A DNA stretch of 19,700 bases from an uncultured Pseudomonadota bacterium (lineage in GTDB: Bacteria > Myxococcota_A > Polyangia > HGW-17): contig CALKWH010000405.1 in the NCBI GenBank assembly GCA_938004375.1, positions 1-19,700 on the forward strand, in the 5' to 3' direction. The notes under the pieces are model-generated. The model made no database searches. It had not been told where the DNA came from and saw only the letters and a list, made by a program, of their open reading frames with translations. Position numbers and translations under genes: made by a program. This document shows positions 1 to 19,700 of the stretch, piece after piece. Each line of letters begins with the position of its first letter. Positions within the stretch are counted from its first letter, which is position 1.

Positions 1-1088
1 CACAAATAGAGGGAGGTGCCCGAGACGGGGCAGGAGGTGATCCGCCCGGTCTCGAGGGCGTCCTCGAGGTTGCCCAGGATCTGAGGGGAGAAGAACGCCA
101 GGGGGGTCACATGGAAGCGCTGGCCGATCAGGCCGTCCCCCAGCCACTTCCGGGCGGACTCGTTGACCCAGGTGACGACCATGCGGGTGTCCAGGAACAG
201 CATGCCGAAGGGATGCTGGATGAAGGCGGCCTGCAGGTCGAAGGGCGGGGGAGGTCCGGGTTCGGGGACGCGGGCGGGGATGGGGCCGGACTCCGCCTCC
301 GGGGCGCCGTCGCTGCAGGCGAGATCCCCGAGGGTGAGCAGCCGGTCCCGCGGGGCGAAGGACAGCAGGCCGAACAGGAAGGCGGCCAGTTTGGGCGAGA
401 TCGTCCGGCGCTCCAGCGGGAGGTTCAGTTCGCCGGACTGGTGGAACACCGGCAGCACGCCGAACGTGAGCTCGTGCAGCAGCACGCCCAGCGCGAAGGC
501 GTCGGCCCCGGCGTTGGGCATGCCGCCCGAGAAGATCTCGGGGGGCAGGTATTCGCGGGTGACGTTCATGGCGAGCCAGTCGTCGAGGCGCCGCATGGGC
601 ACGAAGTCCAACACCACCACCCAGGGATCCCGGGGACCCTTGGTGAGGAAGATGTTCTCCGGCTTGATGTCTCCGTGGAGCATGTTCCGGTCGTGGATGG
701 TCCGCAGGCAGGAGGCGACCTGGGCGCCGACGGACCGGATGAAGAACTCGGACAGTTCCCGGTGTCCTGAGATGTGCCGCGCCAGGCTCTCCCCCTCCAG
801 GAGGTCCATCACCCAGTAGGGCCCGAGCTCGGGGTCTTCCCCAAAGTCCAGGGTCCGGACCAGGTGCGGGTGCGTGAACTGCAGTCCGAAGCGGGCGCCG
901 GCGAGGAAGTGCTGGACCTGGTCAGGCTGCAGCGGGCCCTCCTTGCGCAGGAGGATCTTCACGGCCACACTCCGGTGCTCGGCGGTGTCCTCGGCCTCGA
1001 ACACGGCGGAGAGGCCGCCGGTCCCGGCCAGCCGGACGAGCCGGTACCGGTTCTGCAGGGTGCGGGGAATCTCGAAGATCGGGTTCAT
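1..1088 (-). CDS. Ser/Thr protein kinase-like protein with PAS-like domain (C-terminus off the window)
   Basis: The frame starts at an ATG (1088-1086) and stays open to the left edge, giving 362 codons without a stop, so the protein is partial. Residues about 15-250 form a Hanks-type kinase domain: glycine-rich loop GTGGLSAV (22-29), ATP-anchoring Lys in VAVK (K44), catalytic loop HGDIKPEN (D140, N145), metal-site Asp in DFV (D161), PPE, and the helix-F pattern ADAFALG. Two usual elements are altered: the helix-C Glu position reads Gly (FLAGAR, about 64) and DFG reads DFV. After a Pro-rich linker, residues about 285-362 (HPFGMLFLDTRMVVTWVNES) look like the start of a PAS domain. I see no membrane segment in the visible part. 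The start overlaps the upstream gene's stop (ATGA), which implies translational coupling within a three-gene operon. The substrate is unknown; the co-encoded FHA-GGDEF protein is an obvious candidate. The kinase fold is secure, the activity is not. Confidence 0.85.
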   Translation of the reverse strand, partial: MNPIFEIPRTLQNRYRLVRLAGTGGLSAVFEAEDTAEHRSVAVKILLRKEGPLQPDQVQHFLAGARFGLQFTHPHLVRTLDFGEDPELGPYWVMDLLEGESLARHISGHRELSEFFIRSVGAQVASCLRTIHDRNMLHGDIKPENIFLTKGPRDPWVVVLDFVPMRRLDDWLAMNVTREYLPPEIFSGGMPNAGADAFALGVLLHELTFGVLPVFHQSGELNLPLERRTISPKLAAFLFGLLSFAPRDRLLTLGDLACSDGAPEAESGPIPARVPEPGPPPPFDLQAAFIQHPFGMLFLDTRMVVTWVNESARKWLGDGLIGQRFHVTPLAFFSPQILGNLEDALETGRITSCPVSGTSLYL

Positions 1089-2857
1089 GGGAGCACCGTC
1101 CTCAGGGTCAACTGCCCCAGCCTATCCTTTTTTCGAAGACAACAATAGTGCGTTCTTGGGGTGCCCCTTCCCGGGGAGGAGAGGGGCAGCACCAGACAGA
1201 ACGTCACGTAGCCCGGGAAGGAGCGCTCCAACATCGCGCGGGTCCGCTCGGTGGGCGGTCCCCGCCCGATCCAGGCCACGTTGGGGTTGCACAGGATGTC
1301 CGCGTCCAGGGCGCGGACATGGGACCAGGAGGCCTGCTTGAGGTGGCCCGGTTTGGAGAAGGATCCCGTCTTCACCTTCATCCGGGCGACCGTCGGGTCG
1401 GTCAGGCCGAAGGTGTCCACCACGCGTCCGACGCGGCTCTCGAAGGCGAGGGCGCCAGCGCCCCCGACGACCATGACGACGCGGCGGCGCACGGCCTCGG
1501 GGATGAGCCGTCGCAGGGCTCGCCCCACCTGCTCCCGGTCCCGGGCGAAGTGCACCATGCCCGCTACGCTCTCCATCATGAATTGGGTGCGTTCGGAGGC
1601 CAGGGAGGCGCGGGAGAAGCGCCAGGAGGCGAGGCCGACGGTCGAGACGAACCCGGCGCACGCGAGGGTGGCCAGGGGCCAGGCGATCCGGGGCCGGCCG
1701 GTCTTCTCCGCGAGCCAGAGCGACCAGGCGGCGATCCCCGCGGCGAGGCACGTCAGGAAGAGGGGCCAGGCCGGCGCGAAGAACCGGAACTGGGCCATGA
1801 AATCCCCCCCCGAGCGCACGATGTGGATACCCAGCAGCAGGAACAGGCCCGCCGCCAGGACGAAGAGCCGGCGTGCGCCCGGGAGGCGCTCCCCGGTGCC
1901 GGGCAGGGCGATCCCCGCAAAGAGCGGGAGGGTCCAGTACAGGTGATAGGTGGTGAAGAAGGCGTGGGCGTAGGCGCGCCCGTGGCGGAACAGGAAGCCG
2001 GGGTCGATCCCGGAGACCTTCGTGTGGTACGTCATGGGCAGCCACTGGCCGTAGATCAGGCGTCGCCAGAGGAAATGGGCGCCCACGATCCCGGAAAAGA
2101 GCAGCAGACCGGTCGCCGGGCGGGTCAGGGCCCGCAGGGAGAACCGTCCGGTCACGTTCGATCGTTCGTCCATCCAGGCGGCCAGCAAATGCCAGCCGAG
2201 CGCGGCCGCGCCGAGGAACACGCCCTCGGGGCGGGTGAGCGCGCAGGCGGCCCAAAGCAAGCCGGCCTTCCAGGATCGTCCCGCCGCGTGCGGTCGCCCG
2301 GCGGCCGTCGGGCGGCCTGCTTGCCAGGTGGCCAGGGTGGCCGCGGTCAGGAGTGCGGCGAAGAGCATGGTCTCCATGCCGGTGGAGACCCAGAAGGCGA
2401 ACGGACCGAAGGTGACGGATGACAGCAGGACGCCGGAGACGAGGGTCAGGTGCAGGCCGCGCGCCGGCTCCGGGGCGAGCCGCCGGACGAGGCCGGCCAG
2501 GGAGACGAGGGTCCAGCCCGCGGCGAGGGCGGAGAGGACCCAGGCGGTGGCCGGCAGGGGGAAGGAGAGCCGGTGGGCGCCGGCCAGCAGGACCACCCAG
2601 AGGAAGTTCGAGTACCCCTCCACCGCTTCGCCCGGGTTGTACTCGGGGACGCCGTGGCGGGCCAGGTTGACGGCGTACCGGAAGGAGATGTAGGCGTCGT
2701 CGCAGGTGAACCAGGTCAGGAAGGTGGTGTGGACCAGCAGCAGGGCGGCCGCGGCCGCCAGGAGGAGCCAAACCGGGAGGACCGCGTCGGTCCCGTCCGG
2801 GTGCGGGAGCCGTCCTCTCCAGATGGTGATGAACTCCCGGAGGTCTCTCAAGGTCAC
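1085..2857 (-). CDS. Multi-pass membrane protein, GT-C glycosyltransferase-like (AftB/ZomB-like)
   Basis: This is a 590-residue integral membrane protein with about nine or ten hydrophobic segments from residue 25 to about 400, followed by a soluble C-terminal part. The first loop carries DDAYISFRYAVNLA (53-66), then NPGE and EGYSNFLW (80-87). Further on are LTRPEG and GGDFM-x-x-FRFFAP. Paired acidic residues in the first loop together with these motifs are typical of GT-C polyprenyl-phosphate-sugar transferases of the AftB-like group, which also includes proteins annotated ZomB. The C-terminal part has GGAGALAFES and VVDTFGLTDP, a conserved feature of the same family as I remember it. It probably transfers a sugar to a lipid, glycan or protein on the outer face of the inner membrane; the substrate cannot be told. 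The GTG start overlaps the upstream TGA (GTGA), and the stop overlaps the kinase ATG. I see no strong Shine-Dalgarno site, in keeping with coupled translation. Confidence 0.75.
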   Translation of the reverse strand: MTLRDLREFITIWRGRLPHPDGTDAVLPVWLLLAAAAALLLVHTTFLTWFTCDDAYISFRYAVNLARHGVPEYNPGEAVEGYSNFLWVVLLAGAHRLSFPLPATAWVLSALAAGWTLVSLAGLVRRLAPEPARGLHLTLVSGVLLSSVTFGPFAFWVSTGMETMLFAALLTAATLATWQAGRPTAAGRPHAAGRSWKAGLLWAACALTRPEGVFLGAAALGWHLLAAWMDERSNVTGRFSLRALTRPATGLLLFSGIVGAHFLWRRLIYGQWLPMTYHTKVSGIDPGFLFRHGRAYAHAFFTTYHLYWTLPLFAGIALPGTGERLPGARRLFVLAAGLFLLLGIHIVRSGGDFMAQFRFFAPAWPLFLTCLAAGIAAWSLWLAEKTGRPRIAWPLATLACAGFVSTVGLASWRFSRASLASERTQFMMESVAGMVHFARDREQVGRALRRLIPEAVRRRVVMVVGGAGALAFESRVGRVVDTFGLTDPTVARMKVKTGSFSKPGHLKQASWSHVRALDADILCNPNVAWIGRGPPTERTRAMLERSFPGYVTFCLVLPLSSPGRGTPRTHYCCLRKKDRLGQLTLRTVLP

Positions 2858-3759
2858 TTGTTGTGGGAGCAGACCCGGTTGCGGCCGGAGTGTTTGGCTT
2901 CGTAGAGGGCGCGATCGGCGGCCTCCACCAGCTCCTGGGGAGAGCCGATCAGGGGATCGGGGAGGCTGGCGATCCCGATGCTGACGGTCACGGTGAGGTG
3001 CTGTCCCTCGTACAGGAACGGCCGGTTGGCGATGTTCATGCGCAGCCGGTCGGCCAAAATGAGGGCGTTCTCATGTGGTATGCCGCGGGTGATGAGGGCG
3101 AACTCCTCGCCGCCGTAACGGGCGAACACGTCCTCGGAGCGGATCGAACCCGTCACGCGGCGCGCCATTTCCACGAGCACGGCGTCCCCGCACAGGTGCC
3201 CGTAGGTGTCGTTGAAGCGCTTGAAGTGGTCCAGGTCGAACATGAAGAGCGTGACAGGAAAATGGTGCCGCAGTGCGTAGGCGAACTCGGCTTCGAGCCG
3301 CTCGACGAAGTACCTCTTGTTGTAGGTCTTGGTCAGGCCGTCGCGGAGGGCGGACTCGAACATCTGGCGCTGGAAGTTTTCCTCGACGTTGTCGTGGTAG
3401 GTGAACTTGAGGATCGAGGTGGAGCCGACCTGGATCTTGTCGCCGTCGCGCAACAGGCGCCGAGTGACGCGCTCACTGTTGATGTAGGTGCCGTTGGTGC
3501 TGTTGAGGTCCTCGAGCATCACCTCGCCGCCGGGCAGCGCGATGAGCCGGCAGTGGGAGCGGCTGATCCCGTCGTCGATGAGCACAATCTGATTGAGGTG
3601 GCCTCGGCCGATGACCATCTCCTCGTTGTCGATGCGGAACATCTGGCCGACGTTGCTGCCGGCGATGATGATCAGGCAGGCGTAGTTCTTCTTCTGAGGA
3701 CTCTGCAGGTTTGTGATGTTGACGATCTTGGTGCTTTCGGAAATGTCTTCTCCGGACAC
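2854..3759 (-). CDS. FHA-domain diguanylate cyclase (FHA-GGDEF)
   Basis: This 301-residue soluble protein is predicted to make c-di-GMP from two GTP. The N-terminal tail (1-25) contains STKIVNIT. The FHA domain spans about 26-120 with the phosphothreonine-binding signature GR (51-52), SRSH (66-69) and STNGT (87-91). The GGDEF domain spans about 135-300: FDLDHFK (metal Asp 175), RYGGEEF (GGEEF at 216-220, an active variant) and an RxxD inhibitory site (R207-D210) placed exactly five residues before GGEEF, so product inhibition is expected. The GTG start is supported by AGGAGG five bases upstream (3770-3765); no better start lies between. The gene heads a minus-strand operon and overlaps the next gene by 4 bp. 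Bdellovibrio DgcB, as I remember it, has the same architecture and a similar N-terminal tail. Thr10 sits in T-x-x-V, a plausible FHA ligand if phosphorylated, perhaps by the kinase two genes downstream (inference). Confidence 0.93.
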   Translation of the reverse strand: MSGEDISESTKIVNITNLQSPQKKNYACLIIIAGSNVGQMFRIDNEEMVIGRGHLNQIVLIDDGISRSHCRLIALPGGEVMLEDLNSTNGTYINSERVTRRLLRDGDKIQVGSTSILKFTYHDNVEENFQRQMFESALRDGLTKTYNKRYFVERLEAEFAYALRHHFPVTLFMFDLDHFKRFNDTYGHLCGDAVLVEMARRVTGSIRSEDVFARYGGEEFALITRGIPHENALILADRLRMNIANRPFLYEGQHLTVTVSIGIASLPDPLIGSPQELVEAADRALYEAKHSGRNRVCSHNK

Positions 3760-4132: not shown

Positions 4133-4205
4133 GCTGGCGTAGCTCAACCGGCAGAGCAGCTGATTTGTAATCAGCAGGTTGCGGGTTCAAGTCCCATCGC
4201 CAGCT
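4133..4205 (+). tRNA. tRNA-Thr (anticodon TGT)
   Basis: A full cloverleaf of 73 nt: acceptor GCTGGCG/CGCCAGC, D-arm GCTC/GAGC, anticodon stem GCTGA/TCAGC around loop TTTGTAA (anticodon TGT, reads ACA), five-base variable loop, T-loop TTCAAGT, discriminator T. The T-stem GCGGG/CCCAT has a G-T pair and a C-A opposition at its outer end. CCA is not encoded. It is the first gene after the promoter, in the position of E. coli thrU. Confidence 0.96.
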
Positions 4206-7801: not shown

Positions 7802-8512
7802 ATGGCGAATCTAGGGAAGAAGTACAAAAACGCACTCAAAGTCTACGACCGCACCAAACGCTACACTGTGGACGAGGCCGCCGGCCTCGTCGAAAAACTC
7901 AGCACCACCAAGTTCGATGGCACGGTGGAACTGGCCGTCAGGCTGGGCGTCAATCCGCGGCACGCGGATCAGATGGTCCGCGGCGCGGTGGTTCTGCCCC
8001 ACGGCACCGGCAAGACGGTCCGTGTCCTGGTCTTCACCAAGGGCGACAAGGTCCAGGAAGCCCTGTCCGCCGGCGCCGACTTCGCGGGCGCCGAGGAGCT
8101 CGTCGAGAAGATCCAGAAGGAAAACTGGCTCGAGTTCGACAAGACCATCGCCACGCCGGACGTCATGCCCCTGGTCGGCCGCATCGGCCGCATCCTCGGC
8201 ACGCGCGGCCTGATGCCGAACCCCAAGGTCGGCACGGTCACCTACGACGTCGAGAAGACCGTCAAGGAGCTCAAGGGCGGCCGCGTGGAGTTCCGCGTGG
8301 AGAAGGCCGGCATCGTGCACCTGGGCATCGGCAAGGTCTCCTTCGGCCAGCAGAAGATCAAGGAGAACATGATCTCCGTGATCGAGATGCTCCTGAAGCT
8401 CAAGCCCGCCTCCGCCAAGGGCACTTACATCAAGAGCGTGACCCTCGGCGCCACCATGGGTCCCGGCATCAAACTGGACGTGCATCAACTGCTCGCCCTG
8501 CTGACGGCCTAA
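7802..8512 (+). CDS. rplA: 50S ribosomal protein L1
   Basis: L1 forms the mobile stalk that helps release E-site tRNA, and in many bacteria it represses its own operon. The 236-residue protein matches the family: [74 protein letters not shown], the hallmark [17 protein letters not shown], and a C-terminal [15 protein letters not shown]. The ATG at 7802 is chosen because AGGAGG (7792-7797) lies four bases upstream; an in-frame GTG at 7742 would add 20 residues unlike L1 and translate the leader hairpin. Tandem stops TAATAA end the gene and the second overlaps the rplJ ribosome binding site. Confidence 0.98.
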
Positions 8513-13912: not shown

Positions 13913-18115
<4,203 letters not shown>

Positions 18116-18202
18116 TCGATCCTGGTTCGTGCCGGATAAAAAATGATCGCTCTTTTTCCGAAAACCCCCGTCAAACCTGGAGTTTTTTTTGGAATTAACA
18201 AC

Positions 18203-18230
18203 TTGACACGGTGATTGCGTTCCCTATAAT
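18203..18230 (+). promoter_or_regulatory. Consensus sigma-70 promoter of rpsL-rpsG-fusA
   Basis: Perfect TTGACA (18203-18208) and TATAAT (18225-18230) boxes are separated by 16 bases. T8 at 18183-18190 lies just upstream with no convincing stem before it, so it looks more like an AT-rich upstream element than the end of a terminator for rpoC. The leader to rpsL is about 55 bases long. Confidence 0.9.
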
Positions 18231-18290
18231 ACACCGCGTTTTTGTGGAAGGCCGTGTGGTTTTCCCGCAGCCTGAAAGAGAAAGTGTGCG

Positions 18291-18665
<375 letters not shown>

Positions 18666-18677
18666 AGAGGTATTTCG

Positions 18678-19166
18678 ATGTCCCGCAAAGGTCGTGCCCA
18701 TATCCGCAAGCTCATCCCCGATCCGAAATACACGGACGCCACGATGGACATGCGCCAACTGATCAGCAAGTTCATCAACCAGGTCATGTACGACGGCAAG
18801 AAGAGCACCTCCGAGACGATCGTGTACGGTGCCCTCGAGATCATCGCCGAGCGCCGGAAGGAAGATCCCCTGAAGGTCTTCGAGAAGGCCATGGCCAACG
18901 TCCGCCCCAAGGTCGAGGTCAAGTCACGCCGCGTGGGCGGCTCCACCTACCAGGTCCCCGTCGAGGTCTCCACGCGGCGCGCGAACGCCCTGGCCATGCG
19001 CTGGCTGATCGGCTATTCGCGCAAGCGCTCCGAGCACAACATGTTCGAGCGCCTGGCCGGCGAGTTGCTCGAGGCCGCCGAGAACAAGGGCACCTCCGTG
19101 AAGAAGCGCGAGGACACGCACAAGATGGCCGATGCCAACAAGGCATTCGCCCATTATCGCTGGTAG
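18678..19166 (+). CDS. rpsG: 30S ribosomal protein S7
   Basis: S7 nucleates assembly of the 30S head and contacts E-site tRNA. The 162-residue protein shows the family pattern: [75 protein letters not shown] and the typical end [17 protein letters not shown] lies eight bases before the ATG. The gap to rpsL is only 12 bases, so the roughly 100-base S7 repressor site that E. coli has between these genes is missing. A structured 134-base gap follows before fusA. Confidence 0.98.
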
Positions 19167-19191
19167 TCGATCTTTTTTCAGGTTTTCCGTT

Positions 19192-19213
19192 CCTGGACAT
19201 CCATTCGTCCAGG
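19192..19213 (+). promoter_or_regulatory. Hairpin in the rpsG-fusA gap
   Basis: CCTGGAC (19192-19198) and GTCCAGG (19207-19213) form a perfect 7-bp stem with an 8-base loop ATCCATTC. Seven loop bases (TCCATTC, 19200-19206) are complementary to GAATGGA at 19262-19268, so a pseudoknot or switch with the fusA leader is possible. It has no T-tract after it. Confidence 0.4.
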
Positions 19214-19300
19214 GGGTTCGGAACCACAAACCGTAAGGCGCGAGAGCGAACCGACGGACGTGAATGGACGGTGTTTTGTGTTTTCCCAGGATGATGTAGC

Positions 19301-19656
19301 ATGAGCGAGCCGACCGGAAAGAAAGCAGCCGCGAAGAACAAGGCCGCCGGCCTGCGCGACGTCGCCATCGAGAAGGTGCGTAACATCGGCATCATGGCGC
19401 ACATCGACGCGGGCAAAACGACGGTCACCGAGCGCGTGCTCTTCTACACCGGCATGACCCACCGGCTCGGGGAGGTCCACGAGGGCACCGCCACCATGGA
19501 CTGGATGGAGCAGGAGCAGGAGCGTGGGATCACCATCACCTCAGCCGCCACCACCTGCTACTGGAACGAACACCGCATCAACATCATCGACACCCCCGGC
19601 CACGTGGACTTCACCATCGAGGTGGAGCGTTCCATGCGCGTGCTGGACGGCGCCTG
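19301..19656 (+). CDS. fusA: Elongation factor G, N-terminal part (truncated by contig end)
   Basis: EF-G is the GTPase that drives translocation. Only the first 118 codons plus two bases are present. GTPase motifs: AHIDAGKT (33-40), switch I RGITI (75-79) and DTPGH (97-101), continuing [16 protein letters not shown] as in EF-G. The N-terminus is longer than usual by roughly ten residues and Lys/Ala-rich ([20 protein letters not shown] before [10 protein letters not shown]). CAGGA about nine bases upstream supports the start. The in-frame TGA at 19655-19657 is not a real stop: it is made from two genomic bases and the first base of sequencing adapter. Confidence 0.96.
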
Positions 19657-19700
19657 AGATCGGAAGAGCGTCGTGTAGGGAAAGAGTGTAGATCTCGGTG
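19657..19700. other. Illumina adapter sequence (assembly contamination)
   Basis: These 44 bases begin AGATCGGAAGAGCGTCGTGT and continue to GATCTCGGTG, the reverse complement of the Illumina TruSeq universal (P5-side) adapter as I remember it. They interrupt fusA in the middle of a conserved stretch. This is library-construction sequence, not genome. Confidence 0.98.

Follow-up and report, generated by a model that had tools for sequence, protein, structure and literature searches.

Adapter tails on contigs of public microbial assemblies have been described by Moeller et al. 2024 (PMC11536531). According to the sections of that paper drawn on here, 1110 of the 15,657 MGnify species assemblies are enriched for AGATCGGAAGAG (p < 0.01; about 157 expected), and the adapter clusters at contig ends, beside the adapter-specific stretch CGTCGTGTAGGGAAAGAGTGT.

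Here we analysed a window, i.e. the whole stretch of DNA under study, of 19,700 bases. Its last 44 bases are practically certain to be an adapter artefact that contains no bacterial DNA, and the stop codon that ends the reading frame of fusA is part of this artefact. Upstream of the adapter, the window carries an ordinary tuf-secE-nusG-rpl-rpoBC-rpsL-rpsG-fusA cluster. The features at its right end are the following:

13913..18115, plus strand: rpoC, complete, which served as the query for finding relatives
18291..18665, plus strand: rpsL (ribosomal protein S12), complete (TIGR00981, 231.6 bits, cut-off 112.95)
18678..19166, plus strand: rpsG (ribosomal protein S7), complete (TIGR01029, 221.4 bits, cut-off 135.85)
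19301..19656, plus strand: 5′-terminal part of fusA (elongation factor G), truncated within the GTP-binding domain (PF00009, TIGR00484)
19655..19657, plus strand: false TGA stop codon, composed of the TG before the junction and the first A of the adapter
19657..19700, plus strand: synthetic tail, an exact match (44/44) to the TruSeq Universal adapter

To the left of the translation cluster, three ORFs are located on the minus strand (window positions 3-3759). The first encodes a Ser/Thr protein kinase (PF00069) and runs off the left contig end, the second a protein of 590 aa that matches no Pfam family, and the third an FHA-GGDEF protein (PF00498 and PF00990). Between positions 4133 and 6179, genes for tRNA-Thr, tRNA-Tyr, tRNA-Gly, and a further tRNA-Thr lie ahead of tuf, and a tRNA-Trp gene lies between tuf and secE. 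The tRNA-Trp gene is followed by secE and nusG and, according to the ORF table, by the rpl and rpoBC genes.

Adapter sequence at the contig end

The initial annotation had proposed that a TruSeq adapter begins at position 19657, ends the contig, and creates a false stop codon in fusA. When the last 44 bases were aligned to adapter oligos, all 44 positions of 19657-19700 agreed, with 0 mismatches, with Illumina's TruSeq Universal adapter (P5, Read 1 side) read as its reverse complement. The name TruSeq therefore stands, and the tail can be specified more narrowly as the reverse-complemented adapter of the Read-1/P5 side. The match begins exactly where it had been placed, at 19657, with adapter base 1, and ends 14 bases before the end of the 58-base adapter. 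The junction in the window reads ...GTGCTGGACGGCGCCTG/AGATCGGAAGAGCGTCGTGTAGGGAAAGAGTGTAGATCTCGGTG, the slash marking the boundary between 19656 and 19657.

The letters used for this match are those that we take to be the TruSeq Universal adapter. In the parts considered here, PMC4381617 prints the 33-base Read-1-side part of it as well as an oligo that opens with the same 58 letters. Exact matches of the seven other oligos tried do not exceed 12 bases in the window, and the 12-base match is the common GATCGGAAGAGC core at the same position. Using a first-order Markov model built on the genomic part of the window, we estimated that the 44-mer would be expected about 10^-21.8 times in the window (both strands), and the 13-mer AGATCGGAAGAGC alone about 0.002 times (both strands). 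At the left end of the window (bases 1-150), no adapter match of 8-14 bases was detected with two oligos, each in one expected orientation.

The protein table contains an entry, P0001, of 118 aa that is encoded by the window and is 100% identical to the fusA fragment. The longest contig given for P0001 has 19700 bases, exactly as many as the window. It therefore appears that the window is the complete contig and that the contig literally ends in adapter, as had been proposed.

The tail thus combines three characteristics of adapter contamination, i.e. perfect identity with a commercial oligo, starting at the ligation end of the oligo (44/44 from base 1), an outward-pointing position at the contig end (it ends at 19700), and absence at the same place in relatives. 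The 13-mer AGATCGGAAGAGC occurs in 0 of the 80 loci of rpoC relatives (best 80 of 580), which comprise 1,334,110 bases, and the first 23 bases of the adapter were found in none of the relatives' genomes G001-G003. As an assembly artefact, the adapter tail is of a known kind; it is no biological feature.

The truncated fusA gene and its stop codon

The ORF at 19301-19657 encodes 118 aa, begins with an ATG, and ends VLDGA before a TGA that uses the adapter base A19657. The false stop and the artificial nature of the 118-residue product, both of which had been postulated, are borne out by the ORF table. Comparison of the fragment with PF00009 yielded a value of 2.4e-39, with a match to positions 2-96 of 188, i.e. 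to the first half only. The best NCBIfam match was elongation factor G (EF-G, TIGR00484), with residues 19-118 of the fragment aligned to positions 3-102 of 691. Hence the N-terminal GTP-binding domain of EF-G is represented by its PF00009 match, whereas a full-length multi-domain protein above the NCBIfam cut-off is not present; the score of 199 bits remains below the cut-off of 659.4 because the contig ends.

The 118-aa ORF stands as a separate entry, P0001, with PF00009 in the protein listing. The warning that annotation pipelines could report a short standalone GTPase-domain protein at this place seems to describe what has in fact happened. The three forward frames of the 44 bases are translated as RSEERRVGKECRSR, DRKSVV*GKSVDLG, and IGRASCRERV*ISV. 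Five peptide strings derived from the adapter were found in 0 of 120 protein relatives, i.e. the best 120 listed from 7999 scored candidates sharing most words.

fusA in related genomes

The relatives of the window are the best 80 of 580 confirmed tblastn loci of rpoC, which have identities of 62-94% in the best segment and belong, by title, mostly to the Myxococcota/Deltaproteobacteria. The fusA fragment was matched by tblastn in 20 of these 80 loci. All 20 have the rpoC-rpsL-rpsG-fusA order of the window, with fusA starting 1.1-1.7 kb past rpoC in 17 loci and 4.2-7.7 kb past it in L126, L132, and L137. For the analysis of the next codon, the partial loci L183 and L195 were dropped, leaving 18 loci (of the best 80 of 580) that reach it. 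In these loci, VLDGA is followed by a codon for Val (12) or Ile (6), and a GV[EQ]PQSE stretch is then seen in 17 of the 18, L126 ending before that point. In the genomes of L125 and L121, which are among the closest relatives, the fusA frames without internal stops have lengths of 739 aa and 730 aa, respectively; frame lengths were taken from these two only, and the rows for L131 and L201, which had wrong frames, were left unused.

Because the EF-G frame of the relatives continues and stays open, the fusA stop codon of the window is an artefact. The initial annotation had also stated that the gene continues in the genome. For the relatives, this is directly visible (18/18 loci; 739 and 730 aa), and by analogy with them the organism's own fusA would be expected to go on past 19656.

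These results have to be set against the view that the 44 bases are genomic and that fusA truly has 118 codons, so that the window would encode a GTPase domain that is naturally truncated or stands alone. The ORF is indeed formally complete, with an ATG and a TGA. However, it stops at position 96 of the 188 positions of the PF00009 profile, its frame continues in 18 of the 18 relatives that reach this residue (best 80 of 580), two of which have frames of 739 and 730 aa, and the 13-base core is present in 0 of the 80 relative loci (best 80 of 580). Together with the 44/44 identity to a synthetic oligo, which starts at the oligo's first base and extends to the contig's last base, this makes a genuine short gene vanishingly improbable.

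No match to the fusA fragment was present in 60 of the 80 loci (best 80 of 580), and 51 of these 60 span at least 2 kb after rpoC; two of the 51 contain rpsL and rpsG. The gene order seen in the window is therefore not a general trait of these relatives. This patchy synteny touches the gene order, not the adapter call. The closest rpoC relative among those listed, L122 from genome G001, is 94% identical over residues 1-994, and its contig breaks off within rpoC, the match reaching position 8310 of 8315. The G001 bin contains no close fusA; its most similar protein shares 43% identity with the fragment and lies in a 607-aa frame. When G001 was searched at the DNA level with positions 18120-19656 of the window, without a positive control, no match was obtained.

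The bases preceding the adapter

The last two bases before the junction, 19655-19656, are TG and would open a Cys or a Trp codon, in contrast to the Val or Ile codon in 18 of 18 relative loci (best 80 of 580). Among the 120 best protein relatives, the residue after the motif was readable in 113, the other seven having no motif match. The values are Val in 91 proteins, Ile in 18, and Cys, Gly, and Tyr in one each, and the remaining protein is the copy from the window itself, which has its end at this point. Val or Ile is thus found in 109 of the 112 other proteins with a readable residue (best 120 listed). The lone Cys belongs to P0055, and the C-terminal sequence of P0120, the protein with Tyr, looks frameshifted.

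Either Cys, which is rare at this site, is present in the EF-G encoded here, or the errors extend to the last one or two bases ahead of the adapter. A rare Cys (TGY) immediately behind VLDGA in the GTPase domain of this organism's EF-G is a tentative reading, to which we assign somewhat less than an even chance; it would be the sole oddity at this locus that is not artefactual. Because the TG departs from the usual Val or Ile codon, a cautious cut would be placed a few bases to the left of 19657.

Adapter matches in viral contigs and the origin of the tail

For comparison, viral_contigs was scanned with the same 44-mer, which yielded 122 matches in at least 120 stretches, a sample that is neither complete nor random. 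Among the matches listed, the outer end of the adapter is at most 30 bases from the contig end in 102 of the 122 and at most 200 bases in 114. The sequence runs on as adapter for as long as it lasts, up to 14 bases, in 105 of the 122 listed matches. In eight of the 122 listed matches, the distance to the outward end exceeds 200 bases (L023, L025, L047, L064, L076, L089, L117, and L120).

Two of these eight belong to one contig, IMGVR_UViG_2602041661_000004 (35,578 bases), which contains the 44-mer twice, well inside (L047, 8039-8082, and L089, 2762-2805). These two internal copies suggest joins that were made through adapter sequence. In IMGVR_UViG_3300028840_004475 (147,747 bases), the complete 58-base adapter is present at L076 (1557-1614) and points inward, about 1.5 kb from the contig start; the stretch examined (1-1617) ends three bases beyond it.

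The Read-1/P5-side adapter in reverse complement is what Read 2 enters when an insert is too short, and the first A of the adapter is usually ascribed to the A-tail of the insert. The tail of the window most likely arose in this way. A short library insert would have ended at about 19656, a read would have passed through it into the ligated adapter, and the adapter would have been left untrimmed. The assembler would then have extended the contig along adapter k-mers up to a dead end. In the resulting contig, the fusA frame runs into a stop composed of TG and the first adapter base, and a gene caller then records a complete-looking 118-aa GTPase fragment rather than a gene cut by the contig edge. 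We regard the short-insert step, taken by itself, as highly probable.

The arrangement of insert, adapter from its ligation end, and contig end is most likely the result of such untrimmed short-insert read-through. The same artefact might have come about through chimera formation during ligation or PCR, or through an adapter multimer, and the contig alone would then look the same as after read-through; a chimeric or damaged insert end could, in addition, explain why TG is found in place of the usual Val or Ile codon. However, the simple orientation, with the insert followed by base 1 of the adapter, and the location at the contig end follow the read-through pattern, as do the 102 of the 122 listed viral matches with an outer end no more than 30 bases from the contig end, so that we consider a chimera or multimer improbable. 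Plain read-through remains the preferred explanation.

Implications and comparison with known systems

The importance of the adapter tail is one of data hygiene only. The contig should be trimmed at 19656 or a few bases earlier, and the ORF should be labelled as partial fusA; the 118-aa entry should not be counted as a short GTPase or as a fusA truncation. A stop codon supplied by an adapter would defeat the flag by which a gene caller marks genes cut at a contig edge. The translated frames of the 44 bases can be used for spotting adapter tails in protein sets.

The fusA of the window comes after rpoC, rpsL, and rpsG, as it does in the 20 relative loci (among the best 80 of 580) in which the fragment was matched, and it differs from known EF-G in that its fragment has only 100 of the 691 positions of the elongation factor G model (TIGR00484).

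Like the cases in the sections of PMC11536531 drawn on here, the tail of the window has the AGATCGGAAGAG core, the neighbouring CGTCGTGTAGGGAAAGAGTGT, a position at the contig end, and the forward orientation. The main text of that paper uses none of the expressions “protein”, “stop codon”, or “open reading frame”, so that false gene ends are not its subject. A false stop follows directly from adapter tails of the kind that it describes. The subject of PMC11536531, in these sections, is adapter counts and contiguity.
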